Origin: a virus | Strand: one strand, 5' to 3' | Virus record (IMG/VR): IMGVR_UViG_3300025013_000131 | Coordinates: 1-42,504 of that record | Length of the DNA stretch: 42,504 bases | Shown: positions 17,890-42,504 of the stretch, one piece after another | How positions within the stretch are numbered: the stretch's first letter is position 1 | Layout: every line of letters starts with the position of its first letter | Made by a program: the position numbers and the translations under genes | The notes under the pieces: generated by a model | The model's database searches: none | What the model saw: only the letters and a program-made list of their open reading frames with translations | What the model was told of the DNA's origin: nothing

Positions 17890-17920
17890 AAAAAGGCGGA
17901 GGAGGATGACCTCCCCCGCC
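17890..17920 (-). terminator. Intrinsic terminator upstream of the tailspike gene
   Basis: On the minus strand an 11-bp GC-rich stem (one G-U pair) with loop TCAT is followed by TTTTT. It lies between the HeH-protein gene and the tailspike, so transcripts from the head genes would partly stop here. Confidence 0.7.
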
Positions 17921-19801: not shown

Positions 19802-20635
19802 CTACTTGGTGCCGCCGTAAAGTCTTGTGGCCATATCGCCCTTGTCCCCGCCGCCCTGCGCGCCGGGAATCACCATCCCGTCCTCCCGGACGGCCTTGCC
19901 GATCCTCACCATGAGCCGGATCATCTCCGGGTGATTGCCCACCTTGTACTGGTTCAGCATGGTCTTGAGTTCCGGGGTGCCGAAGGTGTTGAGCGCGCGC
20001 TGCGCCACGGTGATGTTTTCATCCCAGCCGTCGCCGCCGATCTCCGCGTCCTTCTTGGCCGTTTCCACCCAGCCCAGGGCCATCTGGTTGTATGCCTCCT
20101 GGCGGTTAGCGGCCACCTTCAGCTCAAAGTCCGCCAGCTTCTGCGCCTGCTCGTTGTTGAGCCCCAGTTCCTTGGCCAGGGGGGTGAACTCCGCTAAGAG
20201 TTCCGGGACCGGCTCCATCCCTTCCGGGAATTTGATGTCATAGGTCTCCGGGACCGTCTTGGCCGCTTCTGCCTTGGCCTTCTCAGCGTCCTCCGCGTCA
20301 CGTTGCTCCTGGGTGAGACCGGCGCGGTGGGTCTCCTCCGCCTTGGCAGCGGCCAACTCCGCCTTGCGTGCCTCGATGAGTTCCGGGGTGAACAGCTTGG
20401 CCAGATCATCGCCACCGGCGCCGGGATCTCCACCCCCGCCGGCTCCCTTGTCCCCAGCAGCACCTCCGTCCCCGCCGAGGACAGAGCCGCCGCCAGCGCC
20501 ACCATCGCCCCCGGCCTTGCCGTCCCCACCAGCAGCACCACCCGCGCCGCCATCGTCAGGGACTCCCACTCCCAGCGTCAGCGGAATCAACAGAATCGTC
20601 AGGATCAGCCTCCACCACATGGAACGCTTCTTCAT
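19802..20635 (-). CDS. Scaffold protein
   Basis: This 277-residue acidic, Gly/Ala/Glu-rich protein directly precedes the capsid gene. After a Gly-rich stretch (about 25-75) come a helical segment (about 78-125), the YDIKFPEGMEP motif often seen in phage scaffolds, and a helical C-terminal part. It should guide procapsid assembly. The ATG at 20635 has AAGGAGGGAG but gives a 20-residue hydrophobic N-terminus that lies within the overlap with the upstream gene. A GTG about 22 codons on would remove it. The start is therefore uncertain, the identity much less so. Confidence 0.75.
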   Translation of the reverse strand: MKKRSMWWRLILTILLIPLTLGVGVPDDGGAGGAAGGDGKAGGDGGAGGGSVLGGDGGAAGDKGAGGGGDPGAGGDDLAKLFTPELIEARKAELAAAKAEETHRAGLTQEQRDAEDAEKAKAEAAKTVPETYDIKFPEGMEPVPELLAEFTPLAKELGLNNEQAQKLADFELKVAANRQEAYNQMALGWVETAKKDAEIGGDGWDENITVAQRALNTFGTPELKTMLNQYKVGNHPEMIRLMVRIGKAVREDGMVIPGAQGGGDKGDMATRLYGGTK

Positions 20636-20903
20636 TTGCCCTCTCCCTCCTTGCCTTTGAACTCTGTAAAAGGTTGATGTACTTCTCCGGGCAGGCCTGG
20701 AGGATGTCCCCCAGGACCCAGAGCCCTATGTTGCGTTGCCCCTCCTGCATCGCCATGACAGCGGGGTCACTGTTGAAGGAGGTCCTGTAAATCCCGGTCC
20801 TCTCCAGGAGCCGCCAGACGAACCGCGCCCCGGCTGGGGTGGCCAGGATCTCGTTGACGTCCAGGAGGTGCTGGGGTTGGGCCTTGGCCTTCTTCCCTGC
20901 CAT
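20556..20903 (-). CDS. Bbp19-like phage protein
   Basis: The 115-residue protein carries the core of the Bbp19 family: FVWRLLERTGIYRTSF, then a MQEGQRNIGLWVLGDI helix and CPEKYINLL. In BPP-1-like phages this gene lies between portal and scaffold, as here. Its role is unknown, presumably in head assembly. The ATG overlaps the portal stop (TGATG), with GGGGGTGAGG upstream. The acidic C-terminal end overlaps the scaffold start by 80 bases in another frame. Confidence 0.75.
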   Translation of the reverse strand: MAGKKAKAQPQHLLDVNEILATPAGARFVWRLLERTGIYRTSFNSDPAVMAMQEGQRNIGLWVLGDILQACPEKYINLLQSSKARRERANEEAFHVVEADPDDSVDSADAGSGSP

Positions 20904-22582
20904 CACCTCACCCCCAGGAGGCGCGTGAGCGCGCTGGCGTCTTCGATGTTGGTCTCCGAGAGCGTCTTAGCGGCCGTGGCCACGCTCCCCATGGCCGGCG
21001 CCGCCTCCGCCATCGCCTTAGCCTGTGCCTGCTGTGCGCGTGCATCCCGGATCTTGGCCACCTCGTCGCTGGTCCTTATGACCGTGGGGGGGACGCCGTG
21101 CATCCCGGCGTATTCGTCCACGGCCGCGTCCACGTTGAGCTTGTCCACCGCGTCCGGGTTGAAGTTGGCCAGGTTGCCGATGTACCCGGCCACCCTTTCC
21201 ATGGAAGCGGTCCCCACCAGCTTTTGCGCCTGCGCCATCACGCTGATGTACTCCACCTTGAGCGGCTGGCCGTGCAGCTCCTGGGGAGGAGGCGGAACCT
21301 CTCCCCGGCGGAGCATGAGAGCAAAGGTCCGATCAATCGCCGGGTCATAAAGCTCCTCCCCGCACCTCTCGATGGTGGGACCCAGCACCAGGAGCTTCTC
21401 CTGGTGGCGCTCCTCCACCTCCCGCGCCGTCACCTGGTTGATGTCCGAGGTGGCGAACATGAGCATGAGGTCCTCATAGAAGATCTTGCGGATCTCCGCC
21501 TTTTGAGCCTCGATGTCCGCGCGCAGCTCGTTGATGTGCGGCTGGAACTGGTACGCGGGACGGAAAGCCGCGTGCTGCTGCGCCGCCAGGTTGTCGATGT
21601 AGGTCACGCCACCGGGGACTATGCTGGAGCCCGACTCCTTGAGCGCCGAGTCCGCGAGCATCGGAGGACGCACTAGCTTGTCCAGCGCCTCCGCCTTGCG
21701 CTTCTCCGTGAACTGGAGCCCTTTGACCGTCCCCAGCGCGTCCATTCCCGGAGAGTAGCCATAGACGTCATCACCCTCCACGTCCCAGCGGGGGGCCATG
21801 ACCGGGAACTCATCGAACCCGGACTCCGAGAGGAAGAGATCCCCCTGGGACTTGCCGCCCGACTCCCAATAGATGGAGCGAAAGGGCTTATCCCTGGCGT
21901 CCAGCTTCGAGGGGTCCCGGCCCACGTTGGGCTCTATGGCGTGGGTCACCTCCACCTGTTGCTCATAGCTCCCGCGGTCCCAGAGGGTTTTAATGGTCTG
22001 AGAGCACCGCTCCAGGCCGAACTGCATGACCACCTGGCGCACGGTCATGGAGAACTGCCGGTATAAGGTGTCGCACTTGAGCCGGTCGTTAAGCGCGATG
22101 TAGAAGGAGCCGACCGGGAAGGGATAGCAGCGGATGGTGGTTCTGGGGTCTTCGAGGATGGCCATGGCCGCGGTGCCGTGCCCCCCCAGCGCCCCGTACA
22201 TGGAGGGCATGACGTTGTAGAAGTTGGACCGCGCAAAAACCGTCCTCATTCTGGTCTCCATCTCGAAGAGCCAGGACTTGACCGGCTTGAACTTCATGAG
22301 GTCCTCATCCTCGATCATGAGGCGGAACCAGGGGCGGGACTGCGAAGTCATGCCGGCGTGCATCCCGGACTTCAGCGTCCGCAGCGACGTGGTGGCACAA
22401 CTGTTGATGATGGCATCGTTGGCCTTGGCCCCCTTGGTCCGGTTGGTCGTGAGATAGCGCCCGGTCCTGGGAGAAAGGAACTTAGTAAGCTCTTGCCAGT
22501 GCGGGAAGAAGGACTCCCGCTCCGCCTTGAGTTCCGCCAGCCGGCGCTCCAACTGTTGCCGTTTGGTCATGGTTTCCGCCAT
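20903..22582 (-). CDS. Portal (head-to-tail connecting protein)
   Basis: The 559-residue protein matches the podovirus head-tail connecting portal family: N-terminal helix, FFPHWQELTKFLSPRTGR, SLRTLKSGMHAGMTSQSRPWF, and central GYSPGMDALGTVK with a long helical stretch following. It forms the dodecameric ring through which DNA is packaged and leaves. Length is usual for the family. AGAGGTGATAG precedes the ATG. The first 100 bases are shared with the end of a zinc-ribbon gene in another frame. Confidence 0.92.
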   Translation of the reverse strand: MAETMTKRQQLERRLAELKAERESFFPHWQELTKFLSPRTGRYLTTNRTKGAKANDAIINSCATTSLRTLKSGMHAGMTSQSRPWFRLMIEDEDLMKFKPVKSWLFEMETRMRTVFARSNFYNVMPSMYGALGGHGTAAMAILEDPRTTIRCYPFPVGSFYIALNDRLKCDTLYRQFSMTVRQVVMQFGLERCSQTIKTLWDRGSYEQQVEVTHAIEPNVGRDPSKLDARDKPFRSIYWESGGKSQGDLFLSESGFDEFPVMAPRWDVEGDDVYGYSPGMDALGTVKGLQFTEKRKAEALDKLVRPPMLADSALKESGSSIVPGGVTYIDNLAAQQHAAFRPAYQFQPHINELRADIEAQKAEIRKIFYEDLMLMFATSDINQVTAREVEERHQEKLLVLGPTIERCGEELYDPAIDRTFALMLRRGEVPPPPQELHGQPLKVEYISVMAQAQKLVGTASMERVAGYIGNLANFNPDAVDKLNVDAAVDEYAGMHGVPPTVIRTSDEVAKIRDARAQQAQAKAMAEAAPAMGSVATAAKTLSETNIEDASALTRLLGVR

Positions 22583-22766
22583 CTATCACCTCTGTTAAAT
22601 GCCAGTCGTTGCACTTCGGACACTTGTAAACTCGCAGCCTCACCAGGAAGTCCGCGGCCACCATGTTGGCGCCGGTTAAAGCCTGTTTCCGCTTCCGGTA
22701 GCGCCTCTTACCGGATGCCAGGCAGACCACGCGCCCGTTGTGGTTATCCGGTGCGCGCGCCGCCAC
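22482..22766 (-). CDS. Small zinc-ribbon-like phage protein
   Basis: The 94-residue product has a basic N-terminal half (KRRYRKRKQAL) and a YKCPKCNDWHLTE motif, the CxxC-x3-H pattern seen in many small phage proteins next to portal or terminase genes. It may bind zinc and nucleic acid. It begins with GTG one base after the previous stop, which suggests coupling. The last 33 residues overlap the portal start and are low in recognisable structure. The family's role is unknown to me. Confidence 0.6.
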   Translation of the reverse strand: MAARAPDNHNGRVVCLASGKRRYRKRKQALTGANMVAADFLVRLRVYKCPKCNDWHLTEVIDGGNHDQTATVGAPAGGTQGGAGVLLPALARAY

Positions 22767-22767
22767 G

Positions 22768-22959
22768 CTACTGGCCCAGGAGCGTCTTGACCGCGGTGAT
22801 GGCCTTGCCGCTGGCCCCCTGGGAGCCGGTGAGGACGGTGTTGCTTGCCGCCATGCGGCGCCTCAGTCTTTCGCTGTCACGCGCCGAGACCACACCGGCG
22901 TCCTGTTCCTCGGGGGGTGGAACAACCGGAGGAGGGGAAGGGGGAGAACCGCCGCACAT
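22768..22959 (-). CDS. Small Pro-rich phage head protein
   Basis: The 63-residue protein has an N-terminal Gly/Ser/Pro-rich stretch, then a basic helix (ARDSERLRRRMAA) and a TVLTGSQGASG segment ending in a short Leu-containing tail. I recognise this pattern from small proteins encoded just before portal genes in many podoviruses and siphoviruses, but its role is not known. The ATG at 22959 has GCGAGG upstream. A strong terminator ends 48 bases before its start. Confidence 0.65.
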   Translation of the reverse strand: MCGGSPPSPPPVVPPPEEQDAGVVSARDSERLRRRMAASNTVLTGSQGASGKAITAVKTLLGQ

Positions 22960-23006
22960 AAGCACCTCGCATTAAGAGAATTTGCAGACGGCCGCGATTT
23001 GAGCAC

Positions 23007-23031
23007 AAAAAAAGGGGGCCAATTAGCCCCC
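23007..23031 (-). terminator. Intrinsic terminator between terminase and portal blocks
   Basis: On the minus strand, GGGGGC, a 6-base loop and GCCCCC are followed by seven T residues. It is textbook in form and lies between the small DNA-binding gene and the portal cluster, all read in the same direction. I see no good promoter between it and the portal cluster. Confidence 0.85.
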
Positions 23032-23071
23032 TCAACCTACGATAACCACCTATAGCCGCGCGGTGACGCGC

Positions 23072-23311
23072 CTATGGGTCCTCTTCCACCAGCACGGAAC
23101 AGGGAAGGTATCCCCTCCGTTCAGCTTCCAGGACGCTGGCCACGTCCACGCGCATCCCCCTGGCTCCCTCCTTTCCTTCCGGGTGCCACAGCTTGATTAC
23201 CCCCTTGCTGGCCAGCTCACGCACCAGATCCACGCTGCACTCCCAGCGCGCCATGAGGGTGGAAACCCTGGCAAACTTTTTCATCTCGAACGGCAGCGGG
23301 ACCACAGCCAT
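23072..23311 (-). CDS. Small putative DNA-binding protein
   Basis: The 79-residue protein contains a helix-turn-helix-like stretch (about residues 17-35: STLMARWECSVDLVRELAS) followed by IKLWHPEGKEG and a second basic helix. It resembles small winged-helix or excisionase-type proteins. Its ATG overlaps the terminase stop (TGATG) with GGAGGG upstream. A role in packaging or gene control is possible, but I recognise no specific family. Confidence 0.6.
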   Translation of the reverse strand: MAVVPLPFEMKKFARVSTLMARWECSVDLVRELASKGVIKLWHPEGKEGARGMRVDVASVLEAERRGYLPCSVLVEEDP

Positions 23312-24852
23312 CACAGCCCTCCATGCGGATCGTAATCAACCACGTGCCGGGTCTTGCCCGGTGGCAGTGCCTGGCGCTTCGGCGTCTCCACGCTGGCGTA
23401 AATGATGGCGTCCCCCTTGTCCGGGGAGCGCCCTATCCTCTTGATGAGGTCATCCTTGCTCTCGATGAGGATCTTTCCTGCGCGCAGCGTCCAGGTAGGT
23501 GCGCAAAGGTCCGCGCGCACGTCCTGGCCAGGGGGGAGAGCAATGGGGGGGACCGCGTTAGGGTCGAGCGCTTCCCGGAACTGCCACCAGAGTTGAGCGC
23601 GGAGGTTGTAGAACCTGAGCCGGCCGCTCTTGTCCGTGCCATGGCCCACGTCCGCGCCGTTGATCCCCACCACATGCACCCCGGCACTCTTGAGGTGGTC
23701 ATAGGGGGAGGTGCCGACACCCACCACGTCCACATGGATGGGAGCGCCGTCCTTCTGCGCGGCGAGTGCGACAGCCGCGGCGCTGGGTCCGTCCGGGGTG
23801 GCCGCACCGGGGAAGGCCAGGAGCTTGTCATACCAGGAGCCATGACGCCGGGAGATGATCGTCTCGCAGCGCCCCCCGCGCGCCACGTCCTGCCCGATGG
23901 AATCCATGGGGGTCTTCTTGCCGTCCTCGCTCCATCTGGCTTGTGCGGCCTTCACCCACTCCGAGGGGATGACCTGGAAGGGGTTTTCCATCTTGCCGGC
24001 CTGGAAGTTTCCATCCCGCATCATGGAGCGCAGCGGCTCCGGGAGAGCGTCCAGGGTGGCGTCATAACCGGTTTCCATGAGGAAAGGGTTGTCCTCCACC
24101 TTGGAAGGGATGAAGGTCCTGGACTCCGCTTTCCTCATCTTCCCGCTGGCCGTCTGGTGTTCGCCTGGCCCATCCACCTCCAGGTCCTTCCCGTCATCGT
24201 CCGTGATGAAATAGCGAAGCTCCCCAGGCTTGGCCGGGTTGGGGTGGTCAGGATCGAGCCAAGGGGCAAAGAAGCGGATAACCCACTCCCCTTGGGCGTC
24301 AACCGGCGGGTTGCCGGTGAACACCACCCGGCAGCGTTGCCCCTTGATGGTGGTCCTCTTCCAGGTGATGAGGAACCGGACCTGAGACTCCGGGAAACTG
24401 GTCACCTCATCGAACACCTTGAGGTCATGGGGACGCCCCTGATACTTCTTTTCGTCCCCCATGTTGGGAACTGCGCCGAACTCCACTTGACGCTTACCGA
24501 CGCCGGGGACGCGCCAGATGCCTTTCTGGGAGTTGAGCCCCACGTCCGTCCCCAGGATCTCCTGCATCCTGTCCTGTATCGCCTGGAGTTCCGTGCCGAT
24601 CTTGCGGAAGATGATAGAGCGCGTATGCTCCGTGAGCGCCAGCCCTATCACCAAGTCCGTCTTGCCGCCGCCGGCCGCTCCGCCGTAGAAAACAATATCC
24701 GCCTCCGACTCGTAGGCCTCCCGCTGCGGCCCCTCGAACATCGGAACCCACACCGGCGTGGCCGCGCGCATGAGCATGGCCAGTTCCGCCTTCTCCTCCT
24801 CCGTGGCATACCCCAGGAGATCCTTGAGCTTACTGAGCGGAGCCATCGTCAT
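23311..24852 (-). CDS. Terminase large subunit
   Basis: The 513-residue packaging motor has an N-terminal ATPase with Walker A GGAAGGGKT (57-65) and Walker B LKVFDE (144-149), then FTGNPP as the coupling motif (about 178-183). The C-terminal nuclease domain has an acidic residue at Asp322 (GQDVARGG) and a late DKGDA segment (about 488) as likely metal ligands. It cuts concatemeric DNA and pumps it into the procapsid through the portal. Its ATG overlaps the preceding stop. Length and motif spacing are normal. Confidence 0.95.
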   Translation of the reverse strand: MTMAPLSKLKDLLGYATEEEKAELAMLMRAATPVWVPMFEGPQREAYESEADIVFYGGAAGGGKTDLVIGLALTEHTRSIIFRKIGTELQAIQDRMQEILGTDVGLNSQKGIWRVPGVGKRQVEFGAVPNMGDEKKYQGRPHDLKVFDEVTSFPESQVRFLITWKRTTIKGQRCRVVFTGNPPVDAQGEWVIRFFAPWLDPDHPNPAKPGELRYFITDDDGKDLEVDGPGEHQTASGKMRKAESRTFIPSKVEDNPFLMETGYDATLDALPEPLRSMMRDGNFQAGKMENPFQVIPSEWVKAAQARWSEDGKKTPMDSIGQDVARGGRCETIISRRHGSWYDKLLAFPGAATPDGPSAAAVALAAQKDGAPIHVDVVGVGTSPYDHLKSAGVHVVGINGADVGHGTDKSGRLRFYNLRAQLWWQFREALDPNAVPPIALPPGQDVRADLCAPTWTLRAGKILIESKDDLIKRIGRSPDKGDAIIYASVETPKRQALPPGKTRHVVDYDPHGGL

Positions 24853-25103
24853 GAATGCCCCCGGACGGACATCTCCGCGCGCCGCATCGCATCACGCTTT
24901 CGGGTGTACCCCGCCAGAGGGACTATCACAGGGAGGAGGACCAGACACGCCACCGCCTCAAGAAAGGTGGCCAGCGTGCACAACGCCTCCCACCAATCAC
25001 CCCACGGCCAATAATGCAACCTGACTACCACCATGAACGCCTGGCCGCAGTGATACAAATACCCGGCCTCCGCCTCGCTTCTTATGGTCTTAACTCTCGT
25101 CAT
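24849..25103 (-). CDS. Small membrane protein between terminase genes
   Basis: The 84-residue protein has one or two hydrophobic segments (about residues 22-34, rich in Trp and Tyr, and 42-65) and a basic C-terminus. It overlaps both terminase genes by a few bases. I do not recognise it. Position suggests a late protein, perhaps an accessory lysis or exclusion factor, but nothing in the sequence proves this. GGGAGGCGCAG precedes the ATG. Confidence 0.55.
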   Translation of the reverse strand: MTRVKTIRSEAEAGYLYHCGQAFMVVVRLHYWPWGDWWEALCTLATFLEAVACLVLLPVIVPLAGYTRKRDAMRRAEMSVRGHS

Positions 25104-25653
25104 CTGCGCCTCCCTTCCCGTTGGCGCGCGCCTCCAGCTTGGAGATGAGCGTCAACATCCTGTTGGCAATCTCCAGGTCCGACATCTCCCCGCGCACGCC
25201 GAGGTTACCCGACAGCTCCAGCTTGTTGGTGAACATGCCCAGGTGACGCCCCAGGAGGTCCTGGCTGGTGGTCTTGTTGGCGAACTTGAGCACGAAGTTT
25301 CCCAGCTTGTCCCAGCCCCAGCCGACGATGCAGCGGCGCACATGCTCCGGGAGGCAGGCGATACACCCCGGCCTGGTCACCCGATACCCCACCAACTCCG
25401 CCGGATCGAAGAACGCAGCCACCGCCAGCTCCTGCACCACGCGGTCAACGTCCACCTCCGTCCGCTTTGAACGCTCCGCCATGAGAGCCTGCACCACAGC
25501 CTTGACGCTAGGATTCGCTAAGAGAGCCGCCGCCTGCTCGTTGGCCGTCCTCTCCGAGTATCCCGCACGGATAGCGGCCTGAGTACCGTTGAGGTCCTTG
25601 AGATACTCCTCCACAAATCGGCGCCTTTTCGGTGGCAAATCGTCAATTTTCAC
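25090..25653 (-). CDS. Terminase small subunit
   Basis: The 187-residue protein has the Terminase_2-type N-terminus: PPKRRRFVEEYLKDLNGTQAA, then IRAGYSERTANEQAAALLANP, which form the DNA-binding helix-turn-helix helices. It recognises the packaging site and regulates the large subunit. Two Cys residues in CIACLP (about residue 97) are notable. I chose the GTG at 25653 because AGGAGG lies 5 bases upstream; the open frame further upstream would run through the terminator hairpin. The gene begins the late block. Confidence 0.87.
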   Translation of the reverse strand: MKIDDLPPKRRRFVEEYLKDLNGTQAAIRAGYSERTANEQAAALLANPSVKAVVQALMAERSKRTEVDVDRVVQELAVAAFFDPAELVGYRVTRPGCIACLPEHVRRCIVGWGWDKLGNFVLKFANKTTSQDLLGRHLGMFTNKLELSGNLGVRGEMSDLEIANRMLTLISKLEARANGKGGADDES

Positions 25654-25673
25654 CACTTCCTCCTGAGAAACAC

Positions 25674-25713
25674 AAAAAAAGAAGGCGATTCCGTTAGCCG
25701 GGACCGCCTTTTT
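25674..25713 (-). terminator. Terminator before the late block (possibly bidirectional)
   Basis: An 8-9 bp stem (AAGGCGAT with ACCGCCTT, one G-U on the minus strand) with a 13-base loop is flanked by seven A residues on the left and TTTTT on the right, so it can act on both strands. On the minus strand the T-run is broken by one C after the stem. It lies between the candidate late promoter and the small terminase start. Confidence 0.7.
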
Positions 25714-25714
25714 A

Positions 25715-25738
25715 TGCACCATTTAACCCATTTGCACC
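25715..25738. promoter_or_regulatory. Operator-like repeats at the late promoter
   Basis: Two copies of TGCACC (25715-25720 and 25733-25738) lie 18 bases apart, the second within TTTGCACC. The same TTTGCACC motif is repeated in the repressor region at 40002 and 40024. They lie just downstream of the candidate late promoter, where a bound protein could block transcription. Function is inferred from repetition and position. Confidence 0.35.
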
Positions 25739-25750
25739 GGCTCCCCTGCG

Positions 25751-25779
25751 GTGTACTACTAGAAGCCGTTCATTGTCAA
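25751..25779 (-). promoter_or_regulatory. Candidate late promoter
   Basis: On the minus strand a perfect TTGACA (25779-25774) is followed at 15-17 bases by weak -10 candidates (TAGTAC or GTACAC). It lies in the only intergenic gap of over 180 bases in the minus-strand genes. A start near 25745 would give a leader containing the TGCACC repeats and the terminator before the small terminase gene. The weak -10 suggests activation, or another true -10. Confidence 0.4.
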
Positions 25780-25838
25780 GAAATCAGGACCGAGAATCTT
25801 TTTTTCTCCGTCGCAGATGGAGCACACACCGGCGCCCG

Positions 25839-26216
25839 TCACGCCCTCCCCTTGCAGGTCGGGCACTCGATCAAGCCGTCACCTTTGGATTGCAGCGGAA
25901 CAGCCGAGGACCATGCTAACCGCGCTTCGCCCAACTCCTCCACCTGGAGCCGCTCATAGATGACACCAAGCTTTCCCACCACCGCCTCATTGAGCGCGCC
26001 GGCACCGCCGAACTCCCGGACGATGTGGCACATGATGAAGAGGACATCCGCCGCCTCCTCCGCAATAGGCCCAGGCTCCCCGTTGATGACCGCCTGGATG
26101 AACTCGCCCACCTCCTCCCCGAACTTCCGCATGGTCGCGGCGATGTCGAGATCCACCCGGCCGAATTTCCGGCCGTGCCAGTTCTTGAGCTGTTCCTCCA
26201 CCATTGCCAGGTTCAT
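25839..26216 (-). CDS. MazG-like nucleotide pyrophosphohydrolase
   Basis: The 125-residue protein has the MazG signature EEVGEFIQAV (about residue 37-46) and, after a short insert, EEAADVLFIMCHI (about 58-70), giving the paired acidic Mg-binding helices. It should hydrolyse NTPs or dNTPs to monophosphates. Phage MazG proteins are thought to affect nucleotide pools or alarmones. It ends with a CPTC pair that looks like half of a zinc knuckle. The ATG at 26216 has GGGAGG at 6 bases. It is the last gene of the early block. Confidence 0.82.
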   Translation of the reverse strand: MNLAMVEEQLKNWHGRKFGRVDLDIAATMRKFGEEVGEFIQAVINGEPGPIAEEAADVLFIMCHIVREFGGAGALNEAVVGKLGVIYERLQVEELGEARLAWSSAVPLQSKGDGLIECPTCKGRA

Positions 26217-27136
26217 GCGCACCCTCCCGGAAGGATGATCCTGGGGCCGTCCTCCTTCTTTTCACTGGGGACCATGGTGGAAAGCGCGTCATCCGCCAGA
26301 ACAAGGAGCTGCGACTGGCTCAACACGGAGGTGAGCCGCTGCGCCTCCATCTCCTGGCGCACCGCGTCCCTGGCTATCTCGATCCCCTTGACCATGTGCC
26401 GCATGGTGGCCTGATAGTTGGCCAGGACCTCCCGATGCATCCCCAGGATGGTGATGAGCTGGCCCACGCGCTTCTCCGGGGAGCCCTCCAGCGTCTCCGT
26501 CTCCGGGAGCACCGCGGCCAGCGCCTGCATCACCATGTCATCCACGGCGATGAGTTCACGCGCGCAGTCCTGACCGCTACCCGGTATCCCCAGGTGCTCC
26601 CGATAGCGCCGGGTTTCCTCCTCGTCCCGGTGCACCTCGATGTCCAGGAGCCCATCCTCCCGCAAGTCGTATCCGATGGAGTGGAAGGTCCCGCAGTCCG
26701 CGCAGACGAAGCCGAAGGGATTGACGCCCATCTGGATGATGCCAGCGGAAGCCATGGCCACCAGCCCCCCGTCCTTGGTCTGGAACTTTCGCGCCTCGCC
26801 GGCCTCGTCATCCGGTTTCCTGCAGCCCTCGCACTCCCGCGGGTCATCGGTGCAGCACGGCTCTTTTACCTCCGCGGCCACCGGCCCGGTGATGACGCCC
26901 AACTCCGCCGGTCTGGTCGAGCTGGGGAGTTGAGGCTGGAGCGGCTGGTTGAAAGTGAGCTGGGAGAGCCAGATCCTCCCGGTCCTTTCCAAAATGAGCT
27001 TGTCATTGGGCTCCAGTTCCCAGCAGGAAATGACGGTCCCGGCGGTGTCTCCTACTCGGTAGGCAGGAAGCGGCTGGTACTGAGGCTGGCCAGCCCCCAG
27101 GACGATGTTGTGACCTTCAAAAGTTACCGGTTTCAT
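26213..27136 (-). CDS. Unknown early protein with a common phage N-terminal domain
   Basis: The first 75 residues (KPVTFEGHNIVLGAGQPQY..., then VISCWEL and GRIWLSQLTFNQP) match a small stand-alone phage protein of unknown function that I have seen often. Here it is joined to about 230 further residues: a Cys pair region CCTDDPRECEGC (about 93-104), a CADC pair (about 144) and a helical C-terminal half. It looks like a fusion that may bind zinc. It overlaps the radical-SAM-like gene and MazG gene by four bases each, so all three are probably coupled. No function can be assigned. Confidence 0.6.
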   Translation of the reverse strand: MKPVTFEGHNIVLGAGQPQYQPLPAYRVGDTAGTVISCWELEPNDKLILERTGRIWLSQLTFNQPLQPQLPSSTRPAELGVITGPVAAEVKEPCCTDDPRECEGCRKPDDEAGEARKFQTKDGGLVAMASAGIIQMGVNPFGFVCADCGTFHSIGYDLREDGLLDIEVHRDEEETRRYREHLGIPGSGQDCARELIAVDDMVMQALAAVLPETETLEGSPEKRVGQLITILGMHREVLANYQATMRHMVKGIEIARDAVRQEMEAQRLTSVLSQSQLLVLADDALSTMVPSEKKEDGPRIILPGGCA

Positions 27137-27927
27137 GCTCTGTTGCCTCCTGATTTGTTATTTTCCAGCACTACCTTGATGCTGTCCTTCCAGCGGATGG
27201 CCGGGTTGCCCTTGAGAGAGTCCACCAGACGGAGGATTTCCTCATCCCGCTGCAGTTCCTCCACGCGGCGGATGGCCTCCAGGACCTCCTGGCGCTTGTC
27301 CGCCACCCTCACCCGGATCTTGTTCATCTTGCCGATCCACACGCTTTCCGGCTCAAAGGGCATGCACATCCGAACCACCCGGAGCGTTTCCTCCACTCCG
27401 CCCAGCATCGGCTCAATGGAGACCGAGAATGCAAAGCCCCGATGCCCCGCCACGCGCAGGCAAAAGAGCCTCTCCGAAGGGGACGGCGCCCCCGGCTCCC
27501 AGAGCGCGGTGAGACCGGCGTCCATACTCCCGATGGTGAAGCGAAGGAGTATCTGGTCCCGCCAGGGGGACAGTTCCTCCATGACGCGCAGCATGATGTC
27601 CAGGCGCGGCTTGGTGACGATGAGGAGCTTGTTTCCCTTGGCAAGGATGAGCTTGGCCACCTTGATGAAGGCCTCCACGTTGAACTGCGTGATGTCATGA
27701 GCGCTGGGGAACATGACCACGCCCTCCTTGGCCGGGTAACTCCGCATGTTGGCGCGCCGAGTGAGTTCCTCCCTGGCCCACTCCGCGCGGTCGCGGCGCC
27801 GGAACCTGTTGGCGTTGTTCGCCGCGTAGCAGTACAGGCAATCGTTGACGCACCCCAACTGTATGTTTTCCGTCACCTCCGCCCACTCGCGGGTCCCGGT
27901 GCCGGTCCTCTCAGAATCGAATTTCAT
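27133..27927 (-). CDS. DUF5131 / phage Gp37-Gp68 radical-SAM-like protein
   Basis: The 264-residue protein has a three-Cys motif C-x3-C-x2-C (Cys26, Cys30, Cys33, CVNDCLYC), the arrangement that binds a 4Fe-4S cluster in radical SAM enzymes, followed by strands such as LLIVTKP and FAFSVSIEPML expected of a TIM-like barrel. This is the PF07505 (Gp37/Gp68) family, whose substrate is unknown. Some relatives are encoded beside a three-Cys-motif partner (TcmP); I see none here. I chose the ATG at 27927 with AAGGAGGAG upstream. It lies next to two DNA methyltransferases. Confidence 0.85.
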   Translation of the reverse strand: MKFDSERTGTGTREWAEVTENIQLGCVNDCLYCYAANNANRFRRRDRAEWAREELTRRANMRSYPAKEGVVMFPSAHDITQFNVEAFIKVAKLILAKGNKLLIVTKPRLDIMLRVMEELSPWRDQILLRFTIGSMDAGLTALWEPGAPSPSERLFCLRVAGHRGFAFSVSIEPMLGGVEETLRVVRMCMPFEPESVWIGKMNKIRVRVADKRQEVLEAIRRVEELQRDEEILRLVDSLKGNPAIRWKDSIKVVLENNKSGGNRA

Positions 27928-27940
27928 GGTTTGCTCCTCC

Positions 27941-28996
27941 TTATGTTCCATCTAAGCACCTCCTATACAGCCGCAAGAACGCCTCTGCTGCGCATCTTGG
28001 AACCTGTCCGTTTCCAAGGGCTCGCAGTCGGTCCACCCGATAGGCCACCCCATTAGCCACTCGACCCACGTCGGGTTCAACTGGCCAGTCTGGGACACCT
28101 CCATTCCTTCCAGTTCCGCAATCTGTGAGGCCAGCGTATCCGCTTTCCCATTGTGACGGCCACCGGCCTTTGTACCTAGAGAGGCAGTCGGGGTCATGTA
28201 AGAGCGCGGTGATCGAGCCTTGCCCTTGTCCGCCCCTCTCATGTGAACCGCCTTCGTGTTGCTTGCCGTGGGCGTCGGGTACAGAAAGACAAAAGTCCGA
28301 AGGTTCAGTCCCCCCGATCTCCCCTGACATCCCGGACCACCCGTCCCGTCCGATTTCGTGGGAGGCGGATACATCGCCCTGGTCACCGCTTCGGGCAACC
28401 TGACCCCGCGCGGACTCTCCGCTGCTCTCTCCGCTGCTCTCTCCGCTGCTCTCTCCGCTGCTCTCTCCGCTGTGACCGAACCTTTGTGGTCTGAAGCTAT
28501 AGGCGTGGGCCACAATCCAGATCCTTTCCCTTTCGTGAGGTGCACCAACGTGGCACGCTCCCAACACTCCCCATTCCGCATCGTACCCGAGCGAGGCCAG
28601 ATCCCCGAGAACTCGTCCGAGTCCCCTAGAAGTGAGCATTGGCGAATTTTCCACGAAGACGAAGCGGGGTAAAACTTCACCGATGATTCGGGCCATTTCC
28701 ACCCACAATCCTGACCGTGAGCCGTTATCAATCCCCCCCCCCCGGCCGGCCGCGCTGATGTCTTGGCAGGGAAACCCGCCCGAAACCACATCAACAATGC
28801 CGCGCCAAGGTCTTCCGTCAAAGGTCGACACGTCAGACCAAATTGGGAAGGGCTCCAGGACTCCATCGTTTTGTCTCTGTGCCAGAATGGATGCAGCGTA
28901 GGCATCACGTTCAACTGCACACACGGTTCTCCACCCAAGGAGAACCCCTCCGAGTATGCCTCCACCAGCGCCTGCGAAAAGAGCCAGCTCATTCAA
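27941..28996 (-). CDS. C5 cytosine DNA methyltransferase
   Basis: The 351-residue protein has the ordered C5 motifs: I LFAGAGGG (6-13), IV GGFPCQDIS (73-81, catalytic Cys77), VI ENSP (116-119), VIII HERERIW (154-160) and IX-X RALGNGQVP (325-333). The variable part between VIII and IX holds a 12-bp tandem repeat (SGES units, about 176-195) and should contain the target-recognition region. It starts with TTG, with AAGGAGG 5 bases upstream. A G11 tract follows motif IV directly. A second frame is open along almost the whole gene. The likely role is self-protection from host restriction or epigenetic control. Confidence 0.9.
   Translation of the reverse strand: MNELALFAGAGGGILGGVLLGWRTVCAVERDAYAASILAQRQNDGVLEPFPIWSDVSTFDGRPWRGIVDVVSGGFPCQDISAAGRGGGIDNGSRSGLWVEMARIIGEVLPRFVFVENSPMLTSRGLGRVLGDLASLGYDAEWGVLGACHVGAPHERERIWIVAHAYSFRPQRFGHSGESSGESSGESSGESSGESARGQVARSGDQGDVSASHEIGRDGWSGMSGEIGGTEPSDFCLSVPDAHGKQHEGGSHERGGQGQGSITALLHDPDCLSRYKGRWPSQWESGYAGLTDCGTGRNGGVPDWPVEPDVGRVANGVAYRVDRLRALGNGQVPRCAAEAFLRLYRRCLDGT
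27952..28992 (-). CDS. Overprinted second frame inside the C5 methyltransferase gene
   Basis: Shifted by one base from the methyltransferase, a 346-residue frame is open over 98% of its length. Its ATG overlaps the upstream methyltransferase stop (ATGA) and lies 9 bases from the same AAGGAGG. Its translation contains motifs I recognise from many deposited phage proteins: SPSQFGLTC, SSSWKIRQ, WPRSGTMRNGECWER, LWPTPIASD and LNPTWVEWLMGWPIGW. Such proteins often accompany C5 methyltransferases. The resemblance could come only from conservation of the main frame with a similar codon bias, so a real product is unproven. Codon-level selection analysis would decide. Confidence 0.4.
   Translation of the reverse strand: MSWLFSQALVEAYSEGFSLGGEPCVQLNVMPTLHPFWHRDKTMESWSPSQFGLTCRPLTEDLGAALLMWFRAGFPAKTSARPAGGGGLITAHGQDCGWKWPESSVKFYPASSSWKIRQCSLLGDSDEFSGIWPRSGTMRNGECWERATLVHLTKGKGSGLWPTPIASDHKGSVTAERAAERAAERAAERAAESPRGVRLPEAVTRAMYPPPTKSDGTGGPGCQGRSGGLNLRTFVFLYPTPTASNTKAVHMRGADKGKARSPRSYMTPTASLGTKAGGRHNGKADTLASQIAELEGMEVSQTGQLNPTWVEWLMGWPIGWTDCEPLETDRFQDAQQRRSCGCIGGA
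28415..28472 (-). repeat. 12-bp tandem repeat in the methyltransferase gene
   Basis: The plus strand has 4.8 head-to-tail copies of ctctccgctgct. Being a multiple of three, copy changes keep all frames: the methyltransferase reads SGES units and the overlapping frame reads AERA units. It lies in the variable region that should contribute to target recognition. Confidence 0.9.
28733..28743 (-). repeat. G11 homopolymer tract in the methyltransferase gene
   Basis: Eleven C residues on the plus strand (G11 in the coding sense) lie about 8 codons after the catalytic Cys of the C5 methyltransferase. Tracts of this length are prone to slipped-strand mispairing; a one-base change would shift the reading frame. 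Confidence 0.9.
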
Positions 28997-29972
28997 ACAG
29001 ACCTCCTTGCACCGGCTTATTGGTCACCTCCCGCAGGAACTTGCACCCCTGCTGCCAGTAGGTAGGGTGTAACTCCGTCCCGATGAACTTCCTCCCCATC
29101 TCCAGGGAGGCCACTCCCTCGGAACCGATCCCCCCGAACCAGGACGCCACCACGTCGCCGGGATTGGTCCAGAGTTCCAGGCAGCGCTTAGTGAGGTTCA
29201 TGGGCATCGGGCAGAGATGTTTCTCCGCCTTGTCATCGGCGGCGCACTTGACGTTGAGGACATCGGTGGAAGGGAGCCCCCCATCACCGCGCCCCGGCTC
29301 CGTCTTGTTCCAGATGAGCGGCCACGGATAGCCAAGGGTGCGGTCCATGCCTTCCTCGTAGGCTGTCCAGATAGGAGATGCGAGGTCCTGCCAGGTCTCC
29401 AGGGGGACTTTGGCTTTTGGATGCAGCACAGGCCGCACGAGGTCCTCCTGCCCCGGCTTGGCCCATTTGCGGAAAACCATGATGTACTCAGGCATCCCGA
29501 CGCGGCAGAAGGAAGCATCCCCCTGGAAGGTTTTCCAGAGGAGTCCATGTGCGTTGGTCTTAGCGCGTTCGAGAACGGGATCTCGGAAGATGCTGATGCG
29601 GCAGTGAAAGGAGAAACCCTCCTCCTCGTGGATCTTCCTGCAGCCGTCCGAGAAGGCACGCAGTCCCGCCGATCCGTCGCCGCTGGAGTTCTGATAGTAG
29701 ACAAGATCCTTGACGTGGATGGCGACCAATCGCCCCGGCCGGGTGACGCGGTACTGCTCGCGCACCAGATACCGGTACTGCTCGAAAAACTCAGCATCGT
29801 TCTTGACGTTCCCCATGTCCGCGATGCTCTCCGAGTAGACGTAGAGCAGAGAGAACGGCGGGGGGGAGACGCTGAAATCGATGCAATTATCCGGGAGCCC
29901 CTGCGCGAAGGTTACGCAGTCGGCGTTGTAAAAGCTCCAGTCTTTGCCGTGTTGTTCGTTGAGTACTTTCAC
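28989..29972 (-). CDS. N4/N6-type DNA methyltransferase
   Basis: The 327-residue protein has the catalytic motif IV in the form SPPPF (36-40) near the N-terminus and the SAM-binding FGGIGSEG (about 283) with GTELHPTYW near the C-terminus, which is the beta-type order of N4-cytosine or N6-adenine enzymes. The variable middle part holds the target-recognition region. I chose the GTG at 29972, with AAGGAGG upstream and a GTGA overlap with the helicase stop; the open frame further upstream lies within the helicase gene. It is coupled to the C5 enzyme that follows. Confidence 0.85.
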   Translation of the reverse strand: MKVLNEQHGKDWSFYNADCVTFAQGLPDNCIDFSVSPPPFSLLYVYSESIADMGNVKNDAEFFEQYRYLVREQYRVTRPGRLVAIHVKDLVYYQNSSGDGSAGLRAFSDGCRKIHEEEGFSFHCRISIFRDPVLERAKTNAHGLLWKTFQGDASFCRVGMPEYIMVFRKWAKPGQEDLVRPVLHPKAKVPLETWQDLASPIWTAYEEGMDRTLGYPWPLIWNKTEPGRGDGGLPSTDVLNVKCAADDKAEKHLCPMPMNLTKRCLELWTNPGDVVASWFGGIGSEGVASLEMGRKFIGTELHPTYWQQGCKFLREVTNKPVQGGLFE

Positions 29973-31345
29973 GCTACCTCCTTCAACCACGCCGGAAGCG
30001 TTGCGGCCATCGACGGGCAATAGTTCAGTTTCACCTTGCGGTGTTCGTGAGCGGCTTTCATTGCCGCCCTCATGTGGTTTTTCATGGCCTCATGGTCGTG
30101 AGACTTGCGGCTTATCGCCTGCCAGATGTTGTTCTCCGTGTCCGCCATGATGACGTGAGCGTCAACGGGACGTGTCTGGCCAAAGCGCCAGGAGCGCCGC
30201 ACGGCCTGATAAAACTTCTCATAGGAGAAGGAAAGCCCGATGAAGGCCTGCCTGGCGCAATGCTGCCAGTTGAGCCCAAACCCGGCGATGTCGGGTTTCG
30301 TGATAATGCCCCGTATACTTCCGCTGCTGAACCCGATGAGCGCCGACTCCTTGCGTTCCGCACTCATGGAACCACGCACCTCCACGAAGCCGGGGAGCAC
30401 CCTGACCAGCTCGTCAGCTTCATAGTCGGTGTCACACCAGACGATCCACGCCTCATCCGGTTCCGACATCACCACCTCTGCCGTCATCCGAGCCCTAGCC
30501 TCCGCCGTGAGCCGCTTTTCCTTGTGGATAGCCGTCGCGCTCGTATCAGGAGTACGGAACAGAGCATCCCCTGCGTCATGCGTGAGATCCGCCTGGACCA
30601 CATGTCGGTGCAGGTTGAGCGGGGGAAGGGTGAAACCCTCGTCACTGTAGCCAAGATCGGAAGGCTTGGACATGCAGCGCGCCCAGCTTGCGACCCATGC
30701 CCAAAAGGACTTGACGCCGTGATGCTTGAGCCGATAGCGCCCCATGTTCCGCTGGTCCGCGATGAACCACCTGGAGAGCATCTCGTTGCTAGGCATGGCC
30801 CCCAGGAACTGCGAGTGCTGCCCGAGTTCCATGTGATCGTTCGGCGCCGGTGTCGCGGTGCAGGCCAGCCGGAACGGGATGCTGTCCGCGAACTGCATGA
30901 GCTTTCGTGTGGTAATCCCGGTAAAGCTCTTGATGATGGAGGACTCGTCCAGGACGATCCCGCCAAGTCCGCCCTGCTTGAAAAGGTGCAGCCGCTCATA
31001 GTTGGTGACGTTGACACCGGGGCCTATATCGTCCTGGCACTTGGCCACTCGCGCCTCCAGCCCGAACTTGTGGGCCTCGGCCACGTGCTGGTGGGAGACT
31101 GCAAGGGGGGCCAGCATAAGCACCGGAGCCTTGGTATGTTCGTGCACCACACGCCCCCACTCCAGGGAGATGAGGGACTTGCCTAGCCCGGTGTCCAGAA
31201 AGGCGGCACCACAGCCCGCGCGGAGCAGGAACTCTGTCACGTCCCGCTGGTAGGGGAACATCGAGGAGGAGAGCGCCGGGACCGACTCCATACCGCGCAA
31301 CGGTGCCAGTTCTATCTTGCTTTGGAGAAAATCAAGATAACTCAC
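29969..31345 (-). CDS. SNF2-like superfamily 2 helicase/translocase
   Basis: The 458-residue protein has helicase motif I DTGLGKS (51-57), motif II DESS (133-136), motif III TATP (163-166), and a C-terminal RecA domain ending in motif VI QAVRRSWRFGQ (about 393). The motif VI form is typical of SNF2/DEAD-like phage helicases. It lies between the DnaC-type loader and two methyltransferases, so a role in replication, recombination or DNA modification is possible. GTG start with AGGGGG upstream; the start overlaps the loader stop. Confidence 0.86.
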   Translation of the reverse strand: MSYLDFLQSKIELAPLRGMESVPALSSSMFPYQRDVTEFLLRAGCGAAFLDTGLGKSLISLEWGRVVHEHTKAPVLMLAPLAVSHQHVAEAHKFGLEARVAKCQDDIGPGVNVTNYERLHLFKQGGLGGIVLDESSIIKSFTGITTRKLMQFADSIPFRLACTATPAPNDHMELGQHSQFLGAMPSNEMLSRWFIADQRNMGRYRLKHHGVKSFWAWVASWARCMSKPSDLGYSDEGFTLPPLNLHRHVVQADLTHDAGDALFRTPDTSATAIHKEKRLTAEARARMTAEVVMSEPDEAWIVWCDTDYEADELVRVLPGFVEVRGSMSAERKESALIGFSSGSIRGIITKPDIAGFGLNWQHCARQAFIGLSFSYEKFYQAVRRSWRFGQTRPVDAHVIMADTENNIWQAISRKSHDHEAMKNHMRAAMKAAHEHRKVKLNYCPSMAATLPAWLKEVA

Positions 31346-39319: not shown

Positions 39320-39490
39320 TTACTGCCTGGCCAGTTGTTCCAGCGCCAGGTGCTTTGCGGCGCCGCGAAGATCCTTGACGTTGACCTTCTCCGGTTCGAT
39401 CTTGGGAGCCGTAGCCCAGGCGATGAAGAGAATCACCAGCCCCCAGAAGATCCGCATCAGGAACTCCATCCTTTCCGGGTCACGCCTCAT
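39320..39490 (-). CDS. Small single-pass membrane protein
   Basis: The 56-residue protein has a hydrophobic helix (about residues 9-27, FLMRIFWGLVILFIAWA) and a charged tail. I chose the ATG at 39490, with GGGGAGGAAGG upstream; an ATG at 39514 lies deeper in the regulator gene. It overlaps the AlpA-like gene by 11 bases. Its role is unknown. Confidence 0.55.
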   Translation of the reverse strand: MRRDPERMEFLMRIFWGLVILFIAWATAPKIEPEKVNVKDLRGAAKHLALEQLARQ

Positions 39491-39692
39491 CTTCCTTCCT
39501 CCCCATCCGGTCAATGAGATCCCGGATGTCTTCCGCCCTCCATGCCGTGGTCCTCACACCCAGCTTGACCGCCGCCGGAAAGCGCCCCGCTCTTACCCCC
39601 CGCCACCAAGTCGCTGGGCTCACCGGAATCAGTGCCAGAACTTCCGGAAGGCGGAGGAACCCCGTCTCAGGTAAAGCCGCGGTGCCGGTCAT
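39480..39692 (-). CDS. AlpA-like regulator / excisionase
   Basis: The 70-residue protein has the AlpA/MerR-type winged helix: GFLRLPEVLALIPVSPATWWRGVRAGRFP, then WRAEDIRDLID. AlpA-like proteins act as activators or directionality factors in P4-like elements with the same integrase type as here. Its start overlaps the XRE gene stop (ATGA), so the two are coupled. AAAGGAGG precedes the ATG. Confidence 0.85.
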   Translation of the reverse strand: MTGTAALPETGFLRLPEVLALIPVSPATWWRGVRAGRFPAAVKLGVRTTAWRAEDIRDLIDRMGRKEDEA

Positions 39693-39946
39693 GCCGTCCT
39701 CCTTTCCTGGCTTTGGTGCACGCCTTGTGCTCCATTTGCACCACCGTCAACAAAAAAAAACGTTGCCGGTGACTCCAATGCCGTCATGATCTTCGCCAGA
39801 TTATCGGCCCCCGGCTTAACCTGACCGCGCTCCCACTCCGAAAGCTGCTGAGACGATACACCAAGCTTTTCAGCCAGTTGAGCCTGGGACATCCCCCTTG
39901 ACTCTCGCGCCAGCGTTATCCTGTTCGGGACAAAAGCCACTGCCAT
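39689..39946 (-). CDS. XRE-family regulator (Cro-like)
   Basis: The 85-residue protein carries a helix-turn-helix of the XRE type (ITLARESRGMSQAQLAEKLG, then SSQQLSEWERGQVKPG). It is the first gene of the minus-strand early operon, divergent from the plus-strand repressor, the layout of a cI/cro switch. It may therefore be Cro-like. AAAGGAGGTG precedes the ATG. Its own gene contains a copy of ATTTGCACCA (39734-39743). Confidence 0.85.
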   Translation of the reverse strand: MAVAFVPNRITLARESRGMSQAQLAEKLGVSSQQLSEWERGQVKPGADNLAKIMTALESPATFFFVDGGANGAQGVHQSQERRTA

Positions 39947-40095
39947 CTCTGTTTCACCTCCTTTCTAATGTGTGCCACGCGTCAAGAGCTATCATGAACC
40001 ATTTGCACCAGTCAAGATATTTTTTTGCACCATACGAAAAACTATGATACTGTACTGGCACTAATTTATTGAAATGGTTGAAGAAGGAGGGGGCC
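39947..40095. promoter_or_regulatory. Divergent lysis-lysogeny control region
   Basis: Between the two HTH genes lie two copies of TTTGCACCA (40002-40010 and 40024-40032), 22 bases apart, on the same face of the helix. On the plus strand a good -10 (TATGAT, 40043-40048) has only a T-rich -35 at 17 bases. On the minus strand TTGACT (40015-40010) is a possible -35 with weak -10 candidates near 39990. The promoter calls are tentative; the repeated motif is clear. Confidence 0.5.
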
Positions 40096-40446
40096 GTGAA
40101 CAGACTTCAAAAATATATCTCGGACAAGTTGCGCGCTGGGATGACGTTACGGGAAATGTCGAGGGAATCAGGAGTTAGCCACACCAACCTGTCACGCTAC
40201 CACAACCAGGGAAAGGAACCCGACTCCGTTAACTTGACGAAGCTGGCCCATTACTTCAACGTCGAGTTCCATGACCTCCTTGAACCATTTGACCCACGCA
40301 AGCCGGCTTTTAACTTAGGTCCGACTCTTGAGGATCAACTGGCCTACCAGGAATGGCAGACTCTTTCACCTGACCAAAAACTTCAAGCAGTGCAGATGCT
40401 CCGTAGATTGAAAGCAGAGAACAAAACAGGGGATCGGGAAAAATAA
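40096..40446 (+). CDS. HTH repressor (cI-like)
   Basis: The 116-residue protein has an N-terminal helix-turn-helix (GMTLREMSRESGVSHTNLSRYHNQ) followed by a short helical C-terminal part with no peptidase catalytic residues, so it is not a self-cleaving LexA-like repressor. As the only leftward-facing-away regulator it is the likely lysogeny repressor. I chose the GTG at 40096, with AAGGAGGGGG upstream; a TTG at 40069 has no ribosome site. Confidence 0.8.
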   Translation: MNRLQKYISDKLRAGMTLREMSRESGVSHTNLSRYHNQGKEPDSVNLTKLAHYFNVEFHDLLEPFDPRKPAFNLGPTLEDQLAYQEWQTLSPDQKLQAVQMLRRLKAENKTGDREK

Positions 40447-41307: not shown

Positions 41308-42504
41308 TTATTTTTTCAGCTTATCCAGATAATCCGCCCACCGCTGCATCATGGCGTGCCGAGCAGGGAGATGAGAAGTCCGATTGTAGGCTCGCCCGTT
41401 GGGATCTCGCACAGCATGAGCCAGTTGATGCTCAATGAGGTCCACCCTCTCCTCCAGAACCTCGTCCAGGATCGTCCTGGCCATCGCACGGAACCCATGG
41501 CCGTGGATCTCCTCCTTAGTGAACCCCATACGCCGCAGCGCCGCCGTCACTGCGTTCTCCGACATGCACCGGAGGCGAGTCCTCCCGGAAGGGAAAACGA
41601 ATCGTCCCCCGCCGGTGTAAGCCTTCAGCTCCTGGAGGATCTCCACGGCCTGATCACAGAGCGGGACGATGTGCGCCTGCCCCATCTTCATCCTCTCCGC
41701 CGGGATGGAGTAGGTTCTCCCCTCCAGGTCGATCTCCGACCATTCGGCGCTCCTGAGTTCCCCAGGCCTACAGAACCAGAGCGGAGCAAGGCGAAGTGCG
41801 CACTTGACCACAAAGGACCCATCATAGGCATCTATGGCGCGCAGGAGCGGCGCCACGTCCTTAGGATCTACCGGGGCGGACATCCCTTTAGGATTCTTCG
41901 CCCGAATGACACCGCGGAAGTCAGCGGCCGGATTGCTCTTGATGATCCCCCCAAAGGATGCCCAACGAAACACCTGATAGAAAATCGTCTTGAGACGGTG
42001 GCCGGTCTCCAGCGTCTGGCCGGCAACTCGCCGCAGGATCTCCACCAGCTCAGGGGTCTCGATCTCCGCAATAGGTCGCGCGCCGAGGGAAGGAAAGACG
42101 TAGATCTCCAGGCGCCTCCAGACGTGATGAGCATGGTGGTCGCTCCACTCCTCTTTCTTTTCGTCATACCAGCGCTGAGCCACCGCCTTGAAAGTGTTTT
42201 CCGCACGTGCCTGGACAGCCTTCTTTTGTGCCTGTTTCTCCGCTCCAGGATCGACACCCCGTTCCAGGGCCTCCCTAGCATCGTCCCTCCGCTTGCGCGC
42301 CTCCAGGAGCGACACGGCAGGGTAGGCACCCATGGCCAGCTTCTTTTGCTTGCCGGCATACCGGTATTGGAATCGCCAGAGCTTACCGCCGGATGGTGTC
42401 ACCAGAAGGTGAAGACCCAGACCATCGGAGAGCTTGTATTCCGTCGCTTGAGGTTTAGCGTTCTTCACCTTCAATTCGGTGAGTGGCTGAATCCGCTTAG
42501 GCAC
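41308..42504 (-). CDS. P4-type tyrosine integrase
   Basis: The 398-residue protein has the N-terminal DUF4102 domain (DGLGLHLLVTPSGGKLWRFQYRY), a SAM-like core-binding domain (about 100-185) and the catalytic domain with Arg246 (CRPGELR), His336/Arg339 (HGHGFR), His363 and Tyr373. It recombines attP with a tRNA 3' end, in accord with attL at 363. GTG start on the last base of the window; a longer start outside cannot be excluded. Only 4 bases separate its stop from the converging lipoprotein gene, and I see no terminator there. Confidence 0.95.
   Translation of the reverse strand: MPKRIQPLTELKVKNAKPQATEYKLSDGLGLHLLVTPSGGKLWRFQYRYAGKQKKLAMGAYPAVSLLEARKRRDDAREALERGVDPGAEKQAQKKAVQARAENTFKAVAQRWYDEKKEEWSDHHAHHVWRRLEIYVFPSLGARPIAEIETPELVEILRRVAGQTLETGHRLKTIFYQVFRWASFGGIIKSNPAADFRGVIRAKNPKGMSAPVDPKDVAPLLRAIDAYDGSFVVKCALRLAPLWFCRPGELRSAEWSEIDLEGRTYSIPAERMKMGQAHIVPLCDQAVEILQELKAYTGGGRFVFPSGRTRLRCMSENAVTAALRRMGFTKEEIHGHGFRAMARTILDEVLEERVDLIEHQLAHAVRDPNGRAYNRTSHLPARHAMMQRWADYLDKLKK

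Follow-up and report, generated by a model that had tools for sequence, protein, structure and literature searches.

A lysogeny-switch word beside a terminator upstream of terS suggests direct control of late genes in a putative Geobacter-like temperate phage

How are the packaging genes of a temperate phage transcribed when an intrinsic terminator lies immediately before the small terminase gene (terS)? The question is raised by a virus record of 42,504 nt with 62% G+C, which was analysed over its whole length (hereafter, the window) and which, as judged from its open reading frames and from family searches, is a temperate short-tailed phage. Relatives of its large terminase subunit (TerL), with 73–75% identity, are located in genomes of the class containing G003 (Geobacteraceae), from which we infer a host among Geobacter-like bacteria. 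On the minus strand, two early regulatory genes (Cro-like and AlpA-like) are followed by recombination, replication and methylase genes, then by terS and the late genes; the DNA methylase gene (27941–28996, minus strand) contains a repeated SGES stretch (SGESSGESSGESSGES). The terS region comprises the following features, read from the sequence and, for T1, from folding, for the conserved block, from a comparison with the relative L084, and for terS, from family searches.

25774–25779, minus strand: TTGACA, a −35-like hexamer with no good −10 after it, retained in L084
25743–25773, minus strand: conserved block with GGCTTCTAGTAGTA and ACCGCA
25713–25738, minus strand: operator-like direct repeats, GGTGCAAATGG...GGTGCAT, 18 bp apart, retained in L084
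25674–25710, minus strand: intrinsic terminator T1, a hairpin and U-tract; the hairpin occurs in L084 with changed letters
25659–25664, minus strand: AGGAGG, ribosome site of terS
25090–25653, minus strand: terS, terminase small subunit (Terminase_2, phrog_51), with a GTG start codon at 25653

The minus-strand order of TTGACA, repeats, terminator hairpin, ribosome site and terS had been described in a first-pass annotation of this DNA and is borne out by the sequence. All parts are ordered likewise in L084, the one close relative, a virus record of 40784 bases with ca. 80% DNA identity and an order in common over most of the part compared. The element persists despite a differing preceding gene, which is MazG-like in the window and not MazG-like in L084. 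T1 consists of AAGGCGGTCCCGGCTAACGGAATCGCCTT plus CTTTTTTT, folds at about −15.8 kcal/mol and has a run of seven U; its counterpart in L084 reaches −18.6 kcal/mol with a hairpin retained in different letters. On the minus strand, T1 was not picked up by a simple terminator scanner, probably owing to a mismatch in the stem. The terminator ends ca. 20 bases before the start of terS, a gap too short to hold a usual promoter, and transcripts from upstream must thus cross T1 to reach the gene, as the annotation had held. T1 is also terminator-like on the plus strand (25709, −11.7 kcal/mol, followed by TTTTTATGC), and the scan of L084 listed no opposite-strand copy.

A late promoter at TTGACA had likewise been proposed. 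The hexamer is there and is kept in L084, but the −10 is poor, with at most 3 of 6 positions matched by eye, and a promoter scan of 22000–30000 found no sigma-70-type site. With no good −10, a promoter at TTGACA is presumptive, and its activity would depend on an activator or some additional feature. Conservation between TTGACA and the repeats nevertheless exceeds the neutral rate: 63 of 76 positions are identical in the window and L084, as against 859 of 1341 (64%) at the 4-fold sites of eight gene pairs (P ~2.5e-4, treating sites as independent). Within this stretch, the block at 25743–25773 is possibly a promoter core or an activator site. The element had no Rfam match at the gathering threshold, BLASTN against phages retrieved short chance matches only, and when viral contigs were scanned with the conserved block as a DNA pattern, L084 was the sole match. 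The repeats can be read by eye as sigma-54-like (GG-N10-GC), a reading that we consider weak.

The annotation had noticed the repeats as TGCACC (GGTGCA on the minus strand, starting at 25738 and 25720), but it missed that they carry the same word as the immunity region, whose features, assigned by family searches (with the open reading frame list for the integrase) and by sequence reading, are as follows.

41308–42504: integrase
40069–40446, plus strand: CI-like HTH protein, candidate binder
39999–40031, minus strand: early operator, with GGTGCAAA (40031–40024) and GGTGCAAATGG (40009–39999)
39689–39946, minus strand: Cro-like HTH protein, candidate binder (families: best 25 of 59)
39714–39743, minus strand: GGTGCAAATGG where the Cro-like gene ends (3'), immediately ahead of the alpA-like gene
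39480–39692, minus strand: AlpA-like excisionase/regulator, candidate binder

The window contains exactly three copies of GGTGCAAATGG, each on the minus strand: one before terS (25738–25728), one at the end of the Cro-like gene (39742–39732) and one in the early operator. Dinucleotide shuffles contained a mean of 0.01 copies, and none of 100 reached three. The early-operator copy directly follows TTGACT in the interval that separates the divergent HTH genes; GGTGCAAA lies 22 bp away, and this operator is identical at 40 of 42 positions in L084 (P ~2.2e-6 against 4-fold sites). The copy before the alpA-like gene is accompanied by an inverted TGGTGCA (39714–39720, plus strand), and its DNA is identical in L084. 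Indeed, each of the three places carries GGTGCAAATGG in L084 too, and the 33.9 of its 40.8 kb that were compared contain the word nowhere else. Because the terS repeats share their word with the immunity region, direct control by the lysogeny regulator is indicated. Taken by itself, however, a word common to two regions is not as striking as the shuffles would make it: of 3000 random pairs of same-size stretches drawn from the window, 2933 were left after dropping those less than 500 bases apart, and 108 of these 2933 (3.7%) shared a word of at least 11 bases. The case for an operator rests, then, on the joint pattern at three places and not on one shared word.

Several observations count against an operator or narrow its range. 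The element is carried by only two phages, the window and L084, and GGTGCAAATGG is not palindromic; a non-palindromic site is unusual for an HTH_3 dimer. The word is absent from six TerL-related prophage regions, read for 19.5 kb upstream, whose immunity regions differ; likewise, by eye, no such word is found in the operator region of L118, a record without a TerL match that encodes a 36% relative of the CI-like protein. In pattern scans of viral contigs, the repeat word also matched three records (L097, L098 and L099) in unrelated settings. The 22-base repeat of L084, GGTGCAAATGGTGTAAATGGTG, is found unchanged in the unrelated contigs L097 (9857–9878) and L098 (22–43), where a terS-like gene of a different type lies a few hundred bases away.

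Our best explanation, which we put forward tentatively and rate at slightly under an even chance as a whole, is that early and late genes meet at the terS region in a short-tailed temperate phage of Geobacter-like bacteria, that the GGTGCAAATGG copy there is an operator of the lysogeny regulator of the phage, and that one shared regulator silences the late genes until induction. The protein that regulates the early promoter, 14 kb away, would also bind the terS repeats as its operators; the CI-like and the Cro-like HTH proteins are the likeliest candidates. In a lysogen, this regulator, bound at the late start or slightly downstream of it, would silence terS and the genes behind it, while T1 would stop early or stray transcripts. 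Upon induction the regulator would leave, late transcription would begin near 25745, and enough polymerase would cross T1, by leakiness of the terminator or with an additional factor. What is observed is that one word is shared and is conserved at three places in two phages, that T1 is present, and that a promoter would not fit between T1 and terS; binding, repression, the start site and read-through are the proposed part.

The lambda repressor controls the late genes solely indirectly, via Q. A lysogeny regulator acting at the late promoter itself would be a shorter circuit than that of lambda, and it would explain how packaging genes are silenced in phages without a recognisable Q. New here is the lysogeny-switch word GGTGCAAATGG beside a terminator before terS, an arrangement that, from its sequence, suggests direct control of late genes by the switch protein and that gives environmental Geobacter-like phages a clear site for testing late control. 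Literature searches combining Geobacter, prophage, terminase and terminator yielded no paper, and the excerpts of PMC9782041, PMC7326022, PMC9283540 and PMC8787464 do not describe this arrangement in Geobacter-like phages.

Two further strong terminators, identified by scanning and conserved in L084, lie inside the late operon.

23005–23033, minus strand: terminator T2, ca. 40 bases before the next gene
17890–17920, minus strand: terminator T3, ca. 20 bases before the next gene

Neither T2 nor T3 leaves room for a promoter before the next gene. Together they fit antitermination, which the annotation had raised as a possibility, and they fit equally well leaky terminators that grade expression. 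As in lambda pR'/Q/tR', a promoter-like hexamer, a conserved block and a terminator precede the late genes, and transcription could start at the late promoter with an unrecognised antitermination factor that modifies polymerase at the conserved block and carries it through T1, T2 and T3. Such a Q-like system would account for three terminators that are strong, conserved and set 20–40 bases before the next gene, and a Q-binding site would be expected to show the conservation seen from TTGACA to the repeats. We nonetheless consider it rather unlikely. Family scans of the window proteins found no match to Q, in agreement with the annotation, which had recognised none (very divergent or small N-like factors would escape such scans); the leader is shorter than in lambda; the poor −10 weakens the promoter; and comparable positions in phage epsilon15 also have terminators. 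Terminators that leak are an ordinary alternative where they follow packaging and capsid genes. A variant in which neither Q, N nor put of known kind takes part, and in which polymerase modified at the TTGACA-to-repeat block under the control of the lysogeny regulator ignores T1–T3, appears improbable to us. By comparison, phage YA3 has a Q homolog, and its late promoter is followed after 224 bases by a terminator, according to the excerpt of PMC7326022.

The annotation had also allowed that T1 just ends early transcription, in which case the late start would lie within the T1 hairpin, farther down than it, or within terS. This agrees with the recurrence of terminators before terS, found within 160 bases of the gene in 10 of 56 non-redundant loci versus 61 of 1979 control tiles, and the GG-N10-GC spacing, sigma-54-like by eye, would start transcription inside the hairpin. 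The survey started from 85 loci, of which 56 were non-redundant and had enough upstream sequence; five of 79 terS loci (L037, L039, L042, L048 and L051) lay outside it, and without the window and L084, both among the ten, the count is 8 of 54. The control tiles are mostly coding, so that the enrichment is partly an effect of gene boundaries; moreover, the gap between T1 and terS is only ca. 20 bases, the scanned proteins included no recognisable sigma-54 activator, and the upstream conserved block would be left unexplained. We regard this account as unlikely. The recurrence of terminators directly before terS raises the general question of how they are read past. That the repeats are instead a packaging site bound by TerS is suggested by their position, since they adjoin terS and cos or pac sites can be direct repeats beside this gene; the same word in the immunity region and before alpA makes it very unlikely. 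The hexamer and T1 are also suitably spaced for a short RNA of ca. 70 bases starting at TTGACA, but the absence of an Rfam match at the gathering threshold and of a common fold before T1 in the two leaders renders it highly improbable. Attenuation, finally, would have the leader RNA toggle between T1 and an antiterminator fold, and by eye an upstream ACCGC could pair with GCGGT of a T1 arm in both phages. Folded with or without the 3' arm, the leaders show no common structure that sequesters the 5' arm of T1, nor did we see any other alternative fold shared by the window and L084. This counts against the simple attenuation that had been suggested, which is extremely improbable.

For direct control by the lysogeny regulator, the closest known parallel is Salmonella phage epsilon15 (Uetakevirus, NC_004775.2). 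Its record has annotated repressor sites before terS (12–27) and in the immunity region, and also before gp3 and before the tail fibre gene. As in the window, a terminator (annotated at 39646–39672) immediately precedes terS when the map is closed into a circle; a second one (7664–7686), at a place like that of T3, precedes the tail genes, and the head-tail adaptor is related. In each phage, one operator-like word recurs in the immunity region and before terS, and an intrinsic terminator stands at the junction. However, the order in epsilon15 is terminator, operator and terS, whereas in the window a direct repeat lies before the terminator, and the operator of epsilon15 is a different, palindromic word, TTACC-N5-GGTAA, with 11 matches in its record and absent from the terS element of the window. 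Repressor sites at an early/late junction are, by these annotations, of a known kind, with another order and another type of candidate operator here. The layout in the window, with three copies of one asymmetric word on the strand of transcription and one of them beside a terminator, also resembles the stoperators of cluster A mycobacteriophages, as described in the excerpt of PMC9283540; stoperators occupy more than 20 places across the genome versus three exact 11-mer copies in the window.

Bordetella phage BPP-1 (Rauchvirus) resembles the window in its TerL (49% identical), similar size, late gene order and integrase at the end, but a scan of 20139–29737 found no strong terminator before its terS, and its terS and cI/cro regions have no word of more than 8 bases in common. 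In Acinetobacter phage 4316, the two regions have no word of more than 9 bases in common. In both BPP-1 (2926–3165 of L121) and phage 4316 (1186–1400 of L124), the interval from the primase gene to the terS operon contains long inverted repeats, each built from a tandem pair of 9-base units.

Among 277 genomes of the class of G003, a DNA search with the element gave short matches of ca. 21–45 bases in 5 genomes, and a TerL search gave matches in 8. No strong terminator before terS was found by scanning the seven genomes whose TerL is at least 73% identical; L082/L130 has a weaker hairpin there, by eye, and a terminator before terS is present in L133, which is the same locus as L081. The terL match in L133 (G004:C343) contains one in-frame TAG. 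Limnohabitans phage DC33 (PQ492659.1, L122) is filed under Inoviridae, yet its terminase large subunit is 55% identical to that of the window.
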